64,000 bases of DNA from Myxococcota bacterium (GTDB lineage Bacteria; Myxococcota; B64-G9). The notes under the pieces are model-generated. The model did not search any database and was not told where the DNA came from. It saw only the letters and a program-made list of their open reading frames with translations. Shown here piece by piece: positions 25,336 through 61,215 of this stretch; position 1 is the first letter of the stretch, and every line of letters begins with the position of its first letter. The position numbers were made by a program, and so were the translations under genes. The stretch is from assembly GCA_022710975.1 (NCBI GenBank), contig JAKLGA010000015.1:124001-188000 (forward strand), in the 5' to 3' direction.

Positions 25336-26288
25336 TTGCCCACCCTCGGCGTGACCATGGGCGATCCGGCCGGCGTCGGGCCGGAGGTGCTGCTCCTGGC
25401 CCTGGCGCGGGGCGCCCTGCCCGGCGGGGCCCGGGTGCGCGTGTTCGGCGACCGGGGCGTGCTGGCCGAGCGCGCCGCCCGCCTCGGCCTGGAGCCGCCC
25501 GCGGAGCTCGTCGAGGCCTGCCGGCTCGCCCCGGGTGAGGCGCCGCCCGGGGCCTACACGCCCGCCGGCGGCCGGGCGCAGGTCCAGTGCCTGGAGGCGG
25601 CCGCGGCCGAGCTCGGCGCCGGGCGGCTCACCGCCCTGGTGACCGGGCCGCTGCACAAGCGTGCCCTGGTCGAGGCGGGCGCGCCCGGCCCCGGCCAGAC
25701 CGAGTTCCTGGCCGCGCGCCTGGGCGCGCGCCTGCCGGTCATGATGCTGTGCGGGCCGCGCCTCCGGGTGGTGCTGGCCACCACCCACCTGCCGCTGCGC
25801 GAGGTGCCCGGCGCGCTCACCCGCGCGGGGCTCGTGGAGCTGGTGCGGGTCGGCGCCGCCGAGCTGCGGCGCTACTTCTGCCCGGACGGGCCGCGCCTGG
25901 GGCTGGCGGCGCTGAACCCGCACGCCGAGGAGGGCGGCCTGCCGGGCCGCGAGGAGCGCGAGATCCTCGCGCCCGCGGTGGCCGAGCTCTGCGCGCTCGG
26001 CCTGCAGGTGGAGGGCCCGGTGCCGGCCGACTCGCTGTTCGCGCAGGCCGCCGAGGGCCGCTACGACGCCGCGGTGGCGCTGTACCACGATCAGGGCCTC
26101 GGGCCGCTGAAGGCGCTGCACTTCCACGACGCGGTCAACGTCAGCCTGGGGTTGGGCCGGGTGCGCACCTCCCCCGACCATGGCCCGGCCTACGCGCTGG
26201 CCGGCACGGGCCGGGCGGACCCGACCAGCATGCGCGCGGCCATGGAGCTGGCGCTGGCCATGGCGCTCCGGGACCGGGGCGCGCCGCC

Positions 26289-26292
<4 letters not shown>
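25336..26292 (+). CDS. pdxA: 4-hydroxythreonine-4-phosphate dehydrogenase
   Basis: An NAD-dependent step of the DXP-dependent vitamin B6 pathway. GDPAGVGPEV opens the protein; the three metal-ligand histidines appear in TGPLHKRAL, ATTHLPLRE and YHDQGLGPLK. At 318 residues it is near normal length. The start is a TTG at 25336, placing MGDPAG 8 residues in, as in the family. It overlaps uvrA by GTGA and follows the SurA-like gene by 16 bases. Confidence 0.93.
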
Positions 26293-29114
<2,822 letters not shown>

Positions 29115-29157
29115 CCCAGATCTTGGTCCTGTCTCGAAAGGCAACGGAGCATCAAGG

Positions 29158-30240
29158 ATGACAGCAGTCAGACCTAGGATTGAGCGTGTCGTGGGGATAC
29201 TTCTGATGGTCTGCTGCTTGGTAGGCTGCACGCCTAGGAACGAGAACGCAGGTGATGCAGTACTTTCCGAGAAGCACGCTGCAGGTATGAATTGGTCTGC
29301 GCAGAATAGTGTAACTTTGATCAGTATTGAAGGTATCAGAAGTGTACGACTCGAATACAAGGATAGCGGGGAACTGTGGGCCGATGGATTCGCACTCGGG
29401 AACCTGGAAGAGAAGAAGAGGATTGAAAGGGAAATATCAGAACGAAAGATGTCGTTAGGCGCTCTTGGCTACAGTGAACCCACAGAAGGCATCCCCACAG
29501 GAGCGGTCTCTCTGTGCGGCATTTTTATCCATCCGCCATTTCAAGTGGAGTGCCGCATATGTGAAATGGTTGGAACTCCAGGAAGGTCATTGATCATAAA
29601 CGGGGTAGTTGCATCAACCACGTGCCCCTCCGAAGAGAAGTGTGCCGCAGGAGCAGAGACCAAGGCGAATGGGAGATACGAGAATCATCAAGAAGATAGA
29701 ACATGCTTCGACTTGTTTCATGCTAGGCTGAAAGAAGCAGAACAGGCAGTTGCGCAGCTTCCGGTTGAGGCGGACGAATCAAGCGTGCTTGGGGTAGTTC
29801 GTCAAGCGATTGGTGACACGTCGGCCCTTACTTGCGTGAAGAGCATTACAGTTGCTTATACTCCAGAGAACGACAGCAACGACAGCGATGTCACTATCGG
29901 GTACCTGCATACTTCTCCGAACGGCGTGGATATTCGTAGCTATGTCATCTATGATACTTCGCGCACGATCAGTAAGAAACTTGCGAAGAAAACCTCTGTT
30001 GATCCCGAACGACAAGCCATTGAGAAGTGCGAGAGGGAGAAAGAGCTTGTCATTAGTAGTCTTCGGAGTGGATGGTTTGTGCAAGCGAGCGGAGACCGGT
30101 TGAGTCCGTCGACTTCGACAAGCGAGAAAGTTGCGCAGATACATGCGATTCTTGGCACAAACTACGATGTGCGCTTGTTGGGGAGGCTATTGGTGTTGTA
30201 TGGCGCCATCTGCCCAGAATGCTATCTTGCAAATAGGTAA
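29158..30240 (+). CDS. Unknown lipoprotein A of the low-GC island
   Basis: No recognised family. The 360-residue protein starts with a lipoprotein signal (LVGC, C24). The mature chain is mixed alpha/beta with several cysteines (VSLCGIF, VECRICEM, STTCPSEEKC, DRTCFD, CPEC), a helix about 180-200 and a C-terminal helical part. Base composition and codon use (AGA, ATA, TTA, GTA common) differ sharply from uvrA just upstream, pointing to recent transfer. It shows a weak but collinear resemblance to lipoprotein B at 30368: an ING segment, a following long helix, and RSY/F.I....KK. ATG 29158 has GGAG eight bases before it. I cannot assign a function; an envelope-anchored inhibitor, immunity or surface protein would be guesses. 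Confidence 0.7.
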   Translation: MTAVRPRIERVVGILLMVCCLVGCTPRNENAGDAVLSEKHAAGMNWSAQNSVTLISIEGIRSVRLEYKDSGELWADGFALGNLEEKKRIEREISERKMSLGALGYSEPTEGIPTGAVSLCGIFIHPPFQVECRICEMVGTPGRSLIINGVVASTTCPSEEKCAAGAETKANGRYENHQEDRTCFDLFHARLKEAEQAVAQLPVEADESSVLGVVRQAIGDTSALTCVKSITVAYTPENDSNDSDVTIGYLHTSPNGVDIRSYVIYDTSRTISKKLAKKTSVDPERQAIEKCEREKELVISSLRSGWFVQASGDRLSPSTSTSEKVAQIHAILGTNYDVRLLGRLLVLYGAICPECYLANR

Positions 30241-30259
30241 TTGTCACGGGAAGTACTCT

Positions 30260-30313
30260 ATGAAAACTCACTGGGTCCTTTGGCTGCTTGTCCTTGCCTG
30301 CGCTGTTGCCTGA
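30260..30313 (+). pseudogene. 17-codon stub: lipoprotein signal peptide ending in a stop
   Basis: ATG 30260 opens MKTHWVLWLLVLACAVA followed directly by TGA. This is a near-perfect lipoprotein signal peptide (LVLAC) with nothing behind it, and GGGAAG stands shortly before the ATG. It lies between the two island lipoproteins. It may be the head of a lost third gene or a real short leader peptide; I favour a remnant. Confidence 0.45.
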
Positions 30314-30367
30314 CCCGCTCGGTGCCATGGGTTGGTGGAAACGGTCGGGACAAGGCGGGTGGACAAT

Positions 30368-31510
30368 ATGTTGCCAATTGTAAGATATCTGTCTTTGGCA
30401 TTCTTGTGTGCCATTCTGAGCTGTGGAAATGCCCGCGATGCTGCTCAGGCGGATGATCCACTCAAGAACGTCCTTCTGAGGCATGGTGTTGCGCCTGGCG
30501 TGGCTGATGCCCTAGCCCAAATGCTTCAAAGGTTCGATGTTATCGCAGACGAGGGGGGCAGACTGTTTCTGCGAAGTGCCCATCTAACCGGCACGAACAA
30601 GGTCAATCTAGAATATCCCGTGGAGGTTATCATGGGAACCTCTGCGAATTCTGATGCCGTCTTTCTCAGGAGAGCAGACGGGAAAGATATTGCATCGCCG
30701 CCAAAGGAGTTGCCCCCATCCTTTCCAGCTGAGCTGGTGGAATATGCGATCGATATTCATCCGCTATCTATTGCCGACAAGTACTCTATTCCATATGGAA
30801 TCATCTTTGCCTATGGATATAAGATTGTCGCGCCAATCAACCTTCAGGTGGTCGTATTCGGGGACCTCTCGGGAAAACTGTTCATAAATGGTATTTCTCC
30901 GGTTGTTTCCGGACGACTCAATGGTGTGACCTCTGGAATATCGCGCCATGACCTTGCAGAACATTTCGATCAAATGGCAAAGGCGATCGAATCCGTGGCT
31001 TTGCTCCTCAGCAGGTCGATCGGCCTATGTGGAGCTCTGGAAGTAACGGTTGGCAGCCAAGTTAAAACAAACAATCTGCGAATGCTTAGATTGGCTGACT
31101 GCAATGGGCAATGTGCAAGAATAGATTATCAATACTTGACGAACAATCAGCTGTTCATCGCCAATCACAATCCAGCGTATTCATTGCTGGATAGTGGCGT
31201 CAGAAGCTTCAATATCTGCATCCCAGAAATCAAGAAGAAGAGTGTTGAAGATGGCGAGAAAGATATCAACAATGCGCTTCTCCTTGCGAAAACCATCCAG
31301 GACTCACTGGTGCAGGATCGAGTGCCGGTGTTCCTGGGCGGATTCATGGCTGCAGGTATCTCAAGGGAGAAATTTGAGAATCTCATGCAGCGCTGCAAGC
31401 GAGGCCTTCAGGCATTCGAGGCGCCGCTGGAAGGGTTGAACCTTCCTGAATCTGCCGTTCTCGAAATCAAGGCCAATTGCACCAGAATTCTTGATGTAGA
31501 CCGCCCATGA
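30368..31510 (+). CDS. Unknown lipoprotein B of the low-GC island
   Basis: No recognised family; 380 residues. From ATG 30368 the first residues MLPIVRYLSLAFLCAILSC form a lipoprotein signal (C19); the frame could start earlier at a TTG (30332) but this would bury the signal, so I chose ATG. The mature chain has helices about 28-45 and 190-215, a beta-rich middle (YEYPVEVIMG-like, LQVVVFGDLSGKLFINGIS), and cysteine pairs CGAL and DCNGQC. Low GC like its neighbour. Collinear similarity to lipoprotein A suggests ancient duplication. No transport or enzyme motif is seen. Confidence 0.68.
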   Translation: MLPIVRYLSLAFLCAILSCGNARDAAQADDPLKNVLLRHGVAPGVADALAQMLQRFDVIADEGGRLFLRSAHLTGTNKVNLEYPVEVIMGTSANSDAVFLRRADGKDIASPPKELPPSFPAELVEYAIDIHPLSIADKYSIPYGIIFAYGYKIVAPINLQVVVFGDLSGKLFINGISPVVSGRLNGVTSGISRHDLAEHFDQMAKAIESVALLLSRSIGLCGALEVTVGSQVKTNNLRMLRLADCNGQCARIDYQYLTNNQLFIANHNPAYSLLDSGVRSFNICIPEIKKKSVEDGEKDINNALLLAKTIQDSLVQDRVPVFLGGFMAAGISREKFENLMQRCKRGLQAFEAPLEGLNLPESAVLEIKANCTRILDVDRP

Positions 31511-31573
31511 AAAGAGGTATTTACGCGCCATGACTGACCGGCCGGGCACCTTGAATTAAACCGGAGCAGGCAT

Positions 31574-33163
31574 TTGGGAGCAGAGCCGTTGCAGCGCTGG
31601 CAGATCGCGTCCTCGGCCACCTGCCTGGTGCTCGCGCTCCTGGCCGGAGGCTGGCGCGCCTGGCAGGCGCGGCGGGAGCCGGACCGCGGGCGACCTGGGC
31701 GGTTGGAGCTGGCCGGGCTCGGCGCGCTCTTCCTGGGGGCCTGGCTCCTGCGCGCGCTCCTCTCGCCCCACACCCTGCTCCACGAGAACGCCCACGGCTA
31801 CGAGCTGCTCCAGGGGGCCTTCTCCCTCGAGGGGTACTTCTGGCACGGGGCCGGCTACTACACCTTCTTCCACGGGCTGACCTGGCTCCTGGGCGACTCG
31901 CCGGCGGTCGTGTTCCACGGCAACGCCGTCCTGGGCGGGTGCGCGGCGGTGCTGGTGTGGGCCGTGGGCCGGAGGCTGTTCGGCCCCGGAGCGGCCGCCT
32001 GGCTGGCGGCCCTGGCCTGGGCGGCCTGGCCCGCGGCGCTCCGGGAGGGCGGCAGCGAGAGCATGCTGCCGCTCGGGGTGTGCGCCGGGCTGCTCGGGCT
32101 GTGGGCCTGGCTGGACGGCTTCCAGGCGGGTGGCCGGCCGAGCTCGCTCCTGCTGGCGGCCGCGGCGCTGGCCTTCACCGCCCAGGTGCGGCCTGAGCTC
32201 GCGCTCTGGCTGGCGCTCCCGCCGCTCGGGCTGGCGGCCTGCCCCGGGTGGCGCGTCGCGCTCCGCCGGCCCGCGCTCTGGGCCGCCCTGGTCGCGCTGG
32301 GGCTGCTCCTCGCCCCCGGGTTGGTGTTCCGCCTCCAGGACCTGTCCTCGTCCGGCCTGCCCGGCTACCTGGAGCTCGGGCCCGGGCGCTTCCTCGCGGC
32401 GCTCGTGTCCCCGGAGCACCTGCTGCTCCGGCCGGGCTGGACCCCCGCGGCCGTGTGGGTGCTCCTGCCGCTCGGGCTGTGGGCCGGGCTCCGGCGGGCG
32501 CCCCGGGCGCTGCCCCTGCTGGTCGGCGGCACCCTGGCGCTCGCCTGGATCGGCCTGGCGGCCCGGGGCGGCCTGGCCACCCAGGTGCGCCTGCAGCAGC
32601 CCGTGCTGCCGCTGCTCGCCCTGCTGGTGGGCCTGGGTGGCGCCTGGCTGGCCGGGCAGGCGCCGGCGCGCGGCCGGGCCGCCGCGGCCTTCGCGCTGGG
32701 CCTCGCCCTGCTCGCGACCGGGCTCGCGCGCGCCCCCCGGATCCGCGCGCTGGCCACGGCGCAGCACGAGTTCGCCTTCCAGGAGCTCGTCCTGCCCGCG
32801 CTGCCCCCGGGCTGCGGCCTGGTCATGCCCGATCGCTTCATGGCGGACCGGGTGATCTCCACCGAGCTGGCCACCTGGCGGCTCCGCGGCCGGCCGCTCG
32901 CGGAGCTCACGCCGTTCCTGGCGGACCCCCGGGCGGCGGCCGGGGCGCCCTGCTGGGTGCTCTACCGGGGGCTCACCTGCCACCTGTTCACCCACGCGGA
33001 GAGCCCGCCGGCGGACGGGCTGCGGCCGGAGTGCCGGGCCCCCGAGGCGCGTTTCCGGCTCCGGCCGATCTTCGAGCAGACCCTGCCGGCCGTCCCCTAC
33101 GACTACCTGCGGCTGCCCGCCCCCGAGGTGCGCCTGGGGCTCTACCGGCTGGTCCCGCGCTGA
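31574..33163 (+). CDS. Polytopic membrane protein, GT-C glycosyltransferase-like
   Basis: A 529-residue inner-membrane protein with about 10-12 hydrophobic segments and the layout of GT-C enzymes (PMT/ArnT, GT39/GT83): a first long periplasmic loop holding an acidic motif (LLHENAHGYELLQGAF, residues about 70-85) after the first two helices, many helices, then a soluble C-terminal part of about 130 residues. These transfer sugars from lipid carriers to proteins or lipids outside the membrane. The usual DE/DD motif is not clear; E72 or E79 might act. The start is a TTG at 31574 with GGAGCAGG before it. Composition returns to high GC, so this marks the island's right edge. Confidence 0.65.
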   Translation: MGAEPLQRWQIASSATCLVLALLAGGWRAWQARREPDRGRPGRLELAGLGALFLGAWLLRALLSPHTLLHENAHGYELLQGAFSLEGYFWHGAGYYTFFHGLTWLLGDSPAVVFHGNAVLGGCAAVLVWAVGRRLFGPGAAAWLAALAWAAWPAALREGGSESMLPLGVCAGLLGLWAWLDGFQAGGRPSSLLLAAAALAFTAQVRPELALWLALPPLGLAACPGWRVALRRPALWAALVALGLLLAPGLVFRLQDLSSSGLPGYLELGPGRFLAALVSPEHLLLRPGWTPAAVWVLLPLGLWAGLRRAPRALPLLVGGTLALAWIGLAARGGLATQVRLQQPVLPLLALLVGLGGAWLAGQAPARGRAAAAFALGLALLATGLARAPRIRALATAQHEFAFQELVLPALPPGCGLVMPDRFMADRVISTELATWRLRGRPLAELTPFLADPRAAAGAPCWVLYRGLTCHLFTHAESPPADGLRPECRAPEARFRLRPIFEQTLPAVPYDYLRLPAPEVRLGLYRLVPR

Positions 33164-60958: not shown

Positions 60959-61215
60959 GGGGACGTTGTTAAGTTATTGACTTATTGACCTCGGCCTCTC
61001 GATCGAGACAGGGTGGGGACATGCCGCGGGGACCTCGGCTCGACGTGGAGGGAGCGCTGCACCACGTGATGGTGCGCGGCATCGAGCGCCGCGATCTGTT
61101 CCGCTCCGACGCCGACCGCGAGGACCTCCTCGAGCGCCTCGCCATCCTCGTCCCTGGCTGAAAGACCCCGGCACCAAGACACGGTCCCAAGTCCATACCT
61201 GACCCGGGGACGTTG
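60959..61215. repeat. Direct 10-base repeats bracketing a transposase remnant
   Basis: GGGGACGTTG occurs at 60959-60968 and again at 61206-61215, bracketing the truncated transposase. Between the first copy and the gene are two copies of TTATTGAC (60975-60989). They may be ends of a REP-type mini-element. Confidence 0.4.
61021..61161 (+). pseudogene. Truncated REP-associated (Y1-type) transposase
   Basis: ATG 61021 begins a 46-codon frame, MPRGPRLDVEGALHHVMVRG then IERRDLFRSDADREDLLERL, the N-terminus of the Y1_Tnp/RAYT transposase family (MPR.lR.d..GalyHVm.RG.nr..iF.dd.Dr..fLe.L). It stops with TGA right after LVPG; the catalytic HUH and Tyr regions, normally within a further 130-250 residues, are absent. 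It is therefore a dead fragment left after insertion or deletion. Confidence 0.8.

Follow-up and report, generated by a model that had tools for sequence, protein, structure and literature searches.

Three kinds of described system bear on the locus analysed here. ORFan genomic islets and other small acquired cassettes are short, deviate in GC content, are confined to one lineage with an empty site in its relatives, and carry unknown genes. A second comparison is with strain-specific surface cargo. The third is with the myxobacterial SitBAI cassettes for lipoprotein toxins, among whose published hallmarks are a type I signal on SitB, a toxin domain of the nuclease type at the C-terminus and an immunity gene downstream (PMC5562445).

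The locus lies in the window, by which is meant the whole stretch of 64,000 nucleotides that was analysed (contig 7, positions 124001–188000). The host genome comprises 7.13 Mb in 29 contigs and is 98.6% complete. A MYXO-CTERM model has 48 matches in this genome and none in any of 14 control genomes, and the host is therefore a Myxococcota-type bacterium. Between uvrA and the gene of a PMT_2-like membrane protein the window contains two genes of predicted lipoproteins, on what is very probably a recently acquired and unameliorated fragment of ~2.4 kb from a donor of ~50% GC.

Composition and anatomy of the island

The island (29115–31573) has a GC content of 50.5%, compared with an average of 72% for the window. 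In 500-bp steps the fraction falls from ~0.70 to 0.49 past uvrA, and has returned to 0.72 at 31500. GC at the third codon position is 52% in the island and 98% in the neighbouring genes. By codon position (1/2/3) the values are 0.54/0.46/0.52 for gene 1 and 0.58/0.39/0.53 for gene 2, against 0.75/0.49/0.99 for uvrA and 0.80/0.57/0.98 for the PMT_2-like gene on the right. The codon-usage distance between the island and uvrA is 1.05 (neighbours ~1.0), while that between gene 1 and gene 2 is 0.42. The sharp fall in GC after uvrA with its recovery at the next gene, and the accompanying change of codon use, had been described in an earlier note on this sequence; both are borne out, and at both edges. 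The two open frames of the island extend over 398 and 374 codons. In 300 first-order Markov simulations with the dinucleotide make-up of the island the longest frame has a mean of 141 codons and a maximum of 326, so that both long ORFs exceed chance. The features of the locus are itemized in Table 1.

Table 1. Features of the island and its flanks, in window coordinates
Feature	Coordinates	Strand	Basis or remark
uvrA, left flank, kept across the family	26280–29114	+	Pfam UvrA_DNA-bind 2e-38, UvrA_inter 1.5e-32
CGGAGCA, weak candidate target-site duplication, left copy	29145–29151	+	repeat comparison
Left intergenic spacer, GC 0.56	29115–29157		left junction inside or just past the spacer
Gene 1, 360-aa ORFan, predicted lipoprotein, lipobox LVG/C24, cysteine-rich mature part	29158–30240	+	ORF translation
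17-codon ORF MKTHWVLWLLVLACAVA, similar to the signal peptide of a lipoprotein and interrupted by a stop codon	30260–30313	+	sequence
Gene 2, 380-aa ORFan, predicted lipoprotein (AILS/C), ATG 30368	30368–31510	+	ORF translation; open from TTG 30332
MKRGIYAP and stop, its ATG sharing bases with the gene 2 stop (ATGA)	31507–31533	+	sequence; inference
CGGAGCA, weak candidate target-site duplication, right copy	31562–31568	+	repeat comparison
PMT_2-like (dolichyl-phosphate-mannose-protein mannosyltransferase-like) membrane protein, right flank	31574–33163	+	Pfam; G008 orthologue directly after uvrA

The ORFs of gene 1 and gene 2 do not overlap. The start of gene 2 is probably the ATG rather than the upstream TTG, because the signal peptide then sits at the N-terminus; the TTG would put 12 extra residues ahead of it. 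The 17-codon ORF between the genes is in the frame of gene 2, with one TGA between them, and is possibly the remnant of another lipoprotein gene. At the right edge the short frame that begins within the stop of gene 2 may be the beginning of the donor gene that followed, truncated at the right junction.

The CGGAGCA pair has ~0.3 chance matches expected in the stretches compared, and its left copy overlaps the ribosome-binding-like sequence GGAG. Neither terminal inverted repeats nor a convincing target duplication are found at the island, and direct repeats of 11–18 nt within it are near chance level. The ORF list and the family libraries contain no integrase or transposase for the island, there is no tRNA in the window and no Rfam element was found. 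Promoter-like and terminator-like sites are no more numerous in the island than in shuffled sequence. An integrative mobile element would be expected to carry an integrase or a transposase, to adjoin a tRNA or att site and to be marked by repeats; the island has none of these beyond chance level, in agreement with the earlier statement that no mobility gene or clear direct repeat is visible. It had further been proposed that the locus may be the core of an undescribed system. Missing mobility genes do not make it one, and the putative operon remnants suggest a fragment.

The uvrA locus in related genomes and the genomic setting

The product of uvrA is 63–70% identical in seven genomes of the same family. 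In one of these (G008), which belongs to another genus, uvrA ends at L019:6017 and the PMT_2-like orthologue begins at L019:6021, so that 3 bp separate the two within a block that is otherwise collinear. The orthologue is 42% identical over its whole length and the N-termini align from residue one (MDTELLQR in G008, MGAEPLQR in the window). Next come the zinc-ribbon and M50-peptidase genes, in the same order as in the window. In five further genera (G001, G002, G004, G005 and G006) uvrA passes directly into the converging zinc-ribbon and M50 genes, and both the PMT_2-like gene and the lipoprotein pair are absent from the uvrA locus. Two genomes were left out of the comparison: the contig of G007 ends just past uvrA, and the best UvrA match of G003 is a different UvrA copy. 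Across the host family the same conserved uvrA–M50 locus ranges from ~51% to 72% GC (L023, L024 and L020 compared with the window). Further UvrA-like matches are present in the host's own genome at C2:253428-257615 and C27:269291-273397, several of them within one long frame (1826 and 1722 codons), which suggests UvrA paralogues that are fused or long.

The empty site in G008, together with the absence of the pair from five genera, indicates that the pair is an insertion into the lineage of the window. The simplest history has two steps, in which the line shared with G008 gained the PMT_2-like gene and the line of the window subsequently acquired the low-GC pair; loss of the pair from G008 instead of a gain is formally possible. 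The two properties expected of a recently transferred island are both observed: its composition departs from that of the host, and the site is empty in relatives. The proposal of the earlier note that a two-gene piece had been transferred, for which it had advised comparing the site in close relatives, is upheld by the composition break, by the clean site in the other genus of the family, and by the lack of any trace of the pair at the five same-family loci or in the phylum. The codon usage of family members with ~51% GC lies at a distance of 0.30–0.33 from that of the island, compared with 0.42 between the island genes themselves, and a donor within the same family is possible on this measure.

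In 1.64 Mb sampled from the genome there are 29 low-GC stretches of at least 0.8 kb. Their contents are varied and most are in contig C24, where low-GC islands cluster over positions ~1–220000 (L054, L099–L108) in an apparently mosaic region. Assignment of the pair to a general class of lipoprotein islands was considered and rejected, since elsewhere in the 1.64 Mb there is only one weak lipoprotein-like call. The pair stands alone, within a neighbourhood that is conserved.

Several other features were observed in passing. The exported ORFs at L099:9540-12717 contain repeated motifs of the type GGGYSN. At 61022–61163 of the window a short high-GC ORF start (MPRGPRLDVEGALHHVMVRGIERRDLFRSDADREDLLERL) resembles, by eye, a truncated REP-associated (Y1) transposase. 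In contig C2 (L060, 13589–19843) a Cas1-like ORF is followed by a long CRISPR-like repeat array, whose repeat unit, when translated, gives VSIPFISGKVLR, FNPLHLGEGPAT and FQSPSSRGRSCD.

The two proteins and their relationship

Both proteins have N-termini of the lipoprotein type when read by eye, MTAVRPRIERVVGILLMVCCLVG for gene 1 and MLPIVRYLSLAFLCAILS for gene 2, each running directly into a cysteine. A positive n-region, a hydrophobic core and a lipobox ([LVI][ASTVI][GAS]C or near) can be recognised in each, and on these grounds the earlier description of both as lipoproteins would hold. LVGC24 of gene 1 is a core lipobox, and ILSC of gene 2 has leucine at −2, which is a tolerated variant. 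A crude lipoprotein filter picked gene 2 alone, gene 1 being missed owing to Glu9. A surface location of both proteins is plausible from these signals.

Searches of both proteins against Pfam, NCBIfam, PHROGs and PADLOC gave insignificant matches only, and at the thresholds applied no relative was detected among PDB sequences, in 195 searched genomes of the phylum or elsewhere in the host's own genome. Genome, viral, phage and plasmid collections also contained none, in scans by exact short peptides that detect close relatives only and would let distant ones outside the phylum escape. A match of gene 1 in G001 (E = 0.004) is spurious, falling on the atpD/atpC genes, and weak plasmid matches (E ~1–9) are located in ketosynthase, metE or hypothetical genes. 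No direct precedent was found in the literature on ORFans and myxobacterial lipoproteins. Both protein families appear to be undescribed.

The two proteins had also been called apparently paralogous, on the basis of a weak collinear match. The motif itself, IPxG....G..I..P...G....LxING, is present in both, and the best segment aligned by hhalign from single sequences is the IPxG...GxLxING stretch around it. As a sign of common descent it fails, being no better than chance (hhalign P = 0.19). BLASTP between the proteins gives E = 41, in effect nothing, and shuffled sequences score equally well: the fractions are 0.70 with BLOSUM62, 0.16 with BLOSUM45 and 0.75 with PAM250 in local alignment, and 0.29–0.88 in global alignment. 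By sequence comparison, then, the two proteins exhibit no significant similarity and the claim of paralogy is not sustained. AlphaFold2 models calculated without an alignment have pLDDT values of 41.5 and 36.5, too low to count; at this low confidence, strands and helices follow one another in a similar order over the C-terminal two thirds of both, and Foldseek returned nothing for them at E ≤ 0.001.

Origin, possible role and comparison with known systems

The explanation that we favour, with a probability of roughly 60% when taken as a whole, is that of an acquired ORFan-lipoprotein pair, a fragment of a longer operon, expressed by read-through and with an accessory role in the envelope. A fragment from the ~50% GC donor would have entered between uvrA and the PMT_2-like gene. 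The donor operon would have been longer and have included further lipoprotein genes, as suggested by the 17-codon ORF and the start that overlaps the end of gene 2. Transcription probably occurs by read-through from uvrA, because no promoter or terminator rises above chance and uvrA, on the same strand, ends 43 bp before gene 1. Judging from their sequences, both products would be exported by Sec, receive a lipid on the lipobox cysteine, form disulphide bonds and be anchored in the envelope. Anchoring would probably be in the outer membrane, because neither protein has aspartate at +2. The two might then act jointly as accessory envelope factors, for example in recognition, exclusion or protection. 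This last step is a guess, and any specific joint function in the envelope is doubtful.

A strong rival, if somewhat unlikely in itself, is that the island is functionless passenger DNA. A random piece of an operon of another genome would have been taken up by illegitimate recombination and would not yet have decayed. The putative remnants of an operon, one between the genes and one at the right edge, are in keeping with such a piece, as are the absence of a promoter of its own and the isolation of both genes in the phylum. Both long frames are intact, however, which requires either youth or selection.

The pair could alternatively be leftover cargo of a phage or plasmid, with the lipoproteins serving in superinfection exclusion or the masking of phage receptors. 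Phages do carry lipoprotein exclusion proteins, and the island is small acquired envelope cargo of the ORFan type. The classic exclusion lipoproteins are nevertheless small and the proteins of gene 1 and gene 2 several times larger, there is no match in phages, IMG/VR, PHROGs or plasmids, and the island is without a phage gene; this origin is quite unlikely.

A SitBAI-like cassette, for a contact-dependent toxin or for kin discrimination and delivered in lipoprotein form, is improbable. The small immunity gene is absent downstream, where a PMT_2-like membrane protein is encoded instead. No nuclease or toxin domain is found with any library (a novel toxin domain would escape), and lipidation is suggested for both proteins, in contrast to SitB with its type I signal. 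These differences outweigh the Myxococcota-type host with its MYXO-CTERM matches, the presence of lipobox proteins on an acquired segment, and the description of the sitA genes as polymorphic and acquired by horizontal transfer (PMC5562445).

A more ambitious reading would make the two proteins the first members of two new lipoprotein families (or of one, diverged past detection). They would depend on each other in the envelope, as a toxin does on its protector or a receptor on its co-receptor, and would spread as a minimal cassette out of an operon with several genes of this kind. As a joint claim this is distinctly improbable. Native, fast-evolving low-GC genes that were never transferred are very improbable. 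In their favour, no donor was found and some genomes of the family have ~51% GC locally, but the site is empty in G008, the pair is absent from the other five informative genera, and third-position GC differs as strongly as noted from that of the adjacent genes. An assembly chimera or contamination within the contig could yield a composition break, and the estimated contamination is 2.08%, but this is extremely unlikely because both flanks are whole within a contig of 203,708 bp and the order beyond them matches G008, and a chimera seldom rejoins a collinear neighbour.

As an acquired ORFan-lipoprotein pair, the island would provide a cleanly bounded case of a high-GC bacterium gaining envelope genes without visible mobility machinery. 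If the two proteins are true partners, they would enlarge the set of strain-specific surface factors in myxobacteria-like organisms, and it is in this guessed role that the pair resembles known surface cargo.

Within the same genome the closest parallel is the exported pair at L099:9540-12717 in contig C24, which is likewise adjacent, of ~47% GC, without a Pfam match and located in a low-GC island. The genes of that pair are true paralogues, 69% identical, while those of the window are not demonstrably related. With SitBAI (PMC5562445) the island shares an exported lipobox protein, an acquired segment and a Myxococcota-type genome. It differs in having neither an immunity gene nor a toxin domain in Pfam or NCBIfam, and in encoding two lipoproteins rather than one together with a protein bearing a type I signal. 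The likeness to ORFan islets extends to all the properties listed at the outset, namely small size, deviant GC, restriction to one lineage, an empty site in relatives and unknown genes. The differences are that here the empty site is defined at the level of single bases and that both genes encode predicted lipoproteins. The island belongs to an ordinary type of ORFan insertion, and its empty site is well documented.
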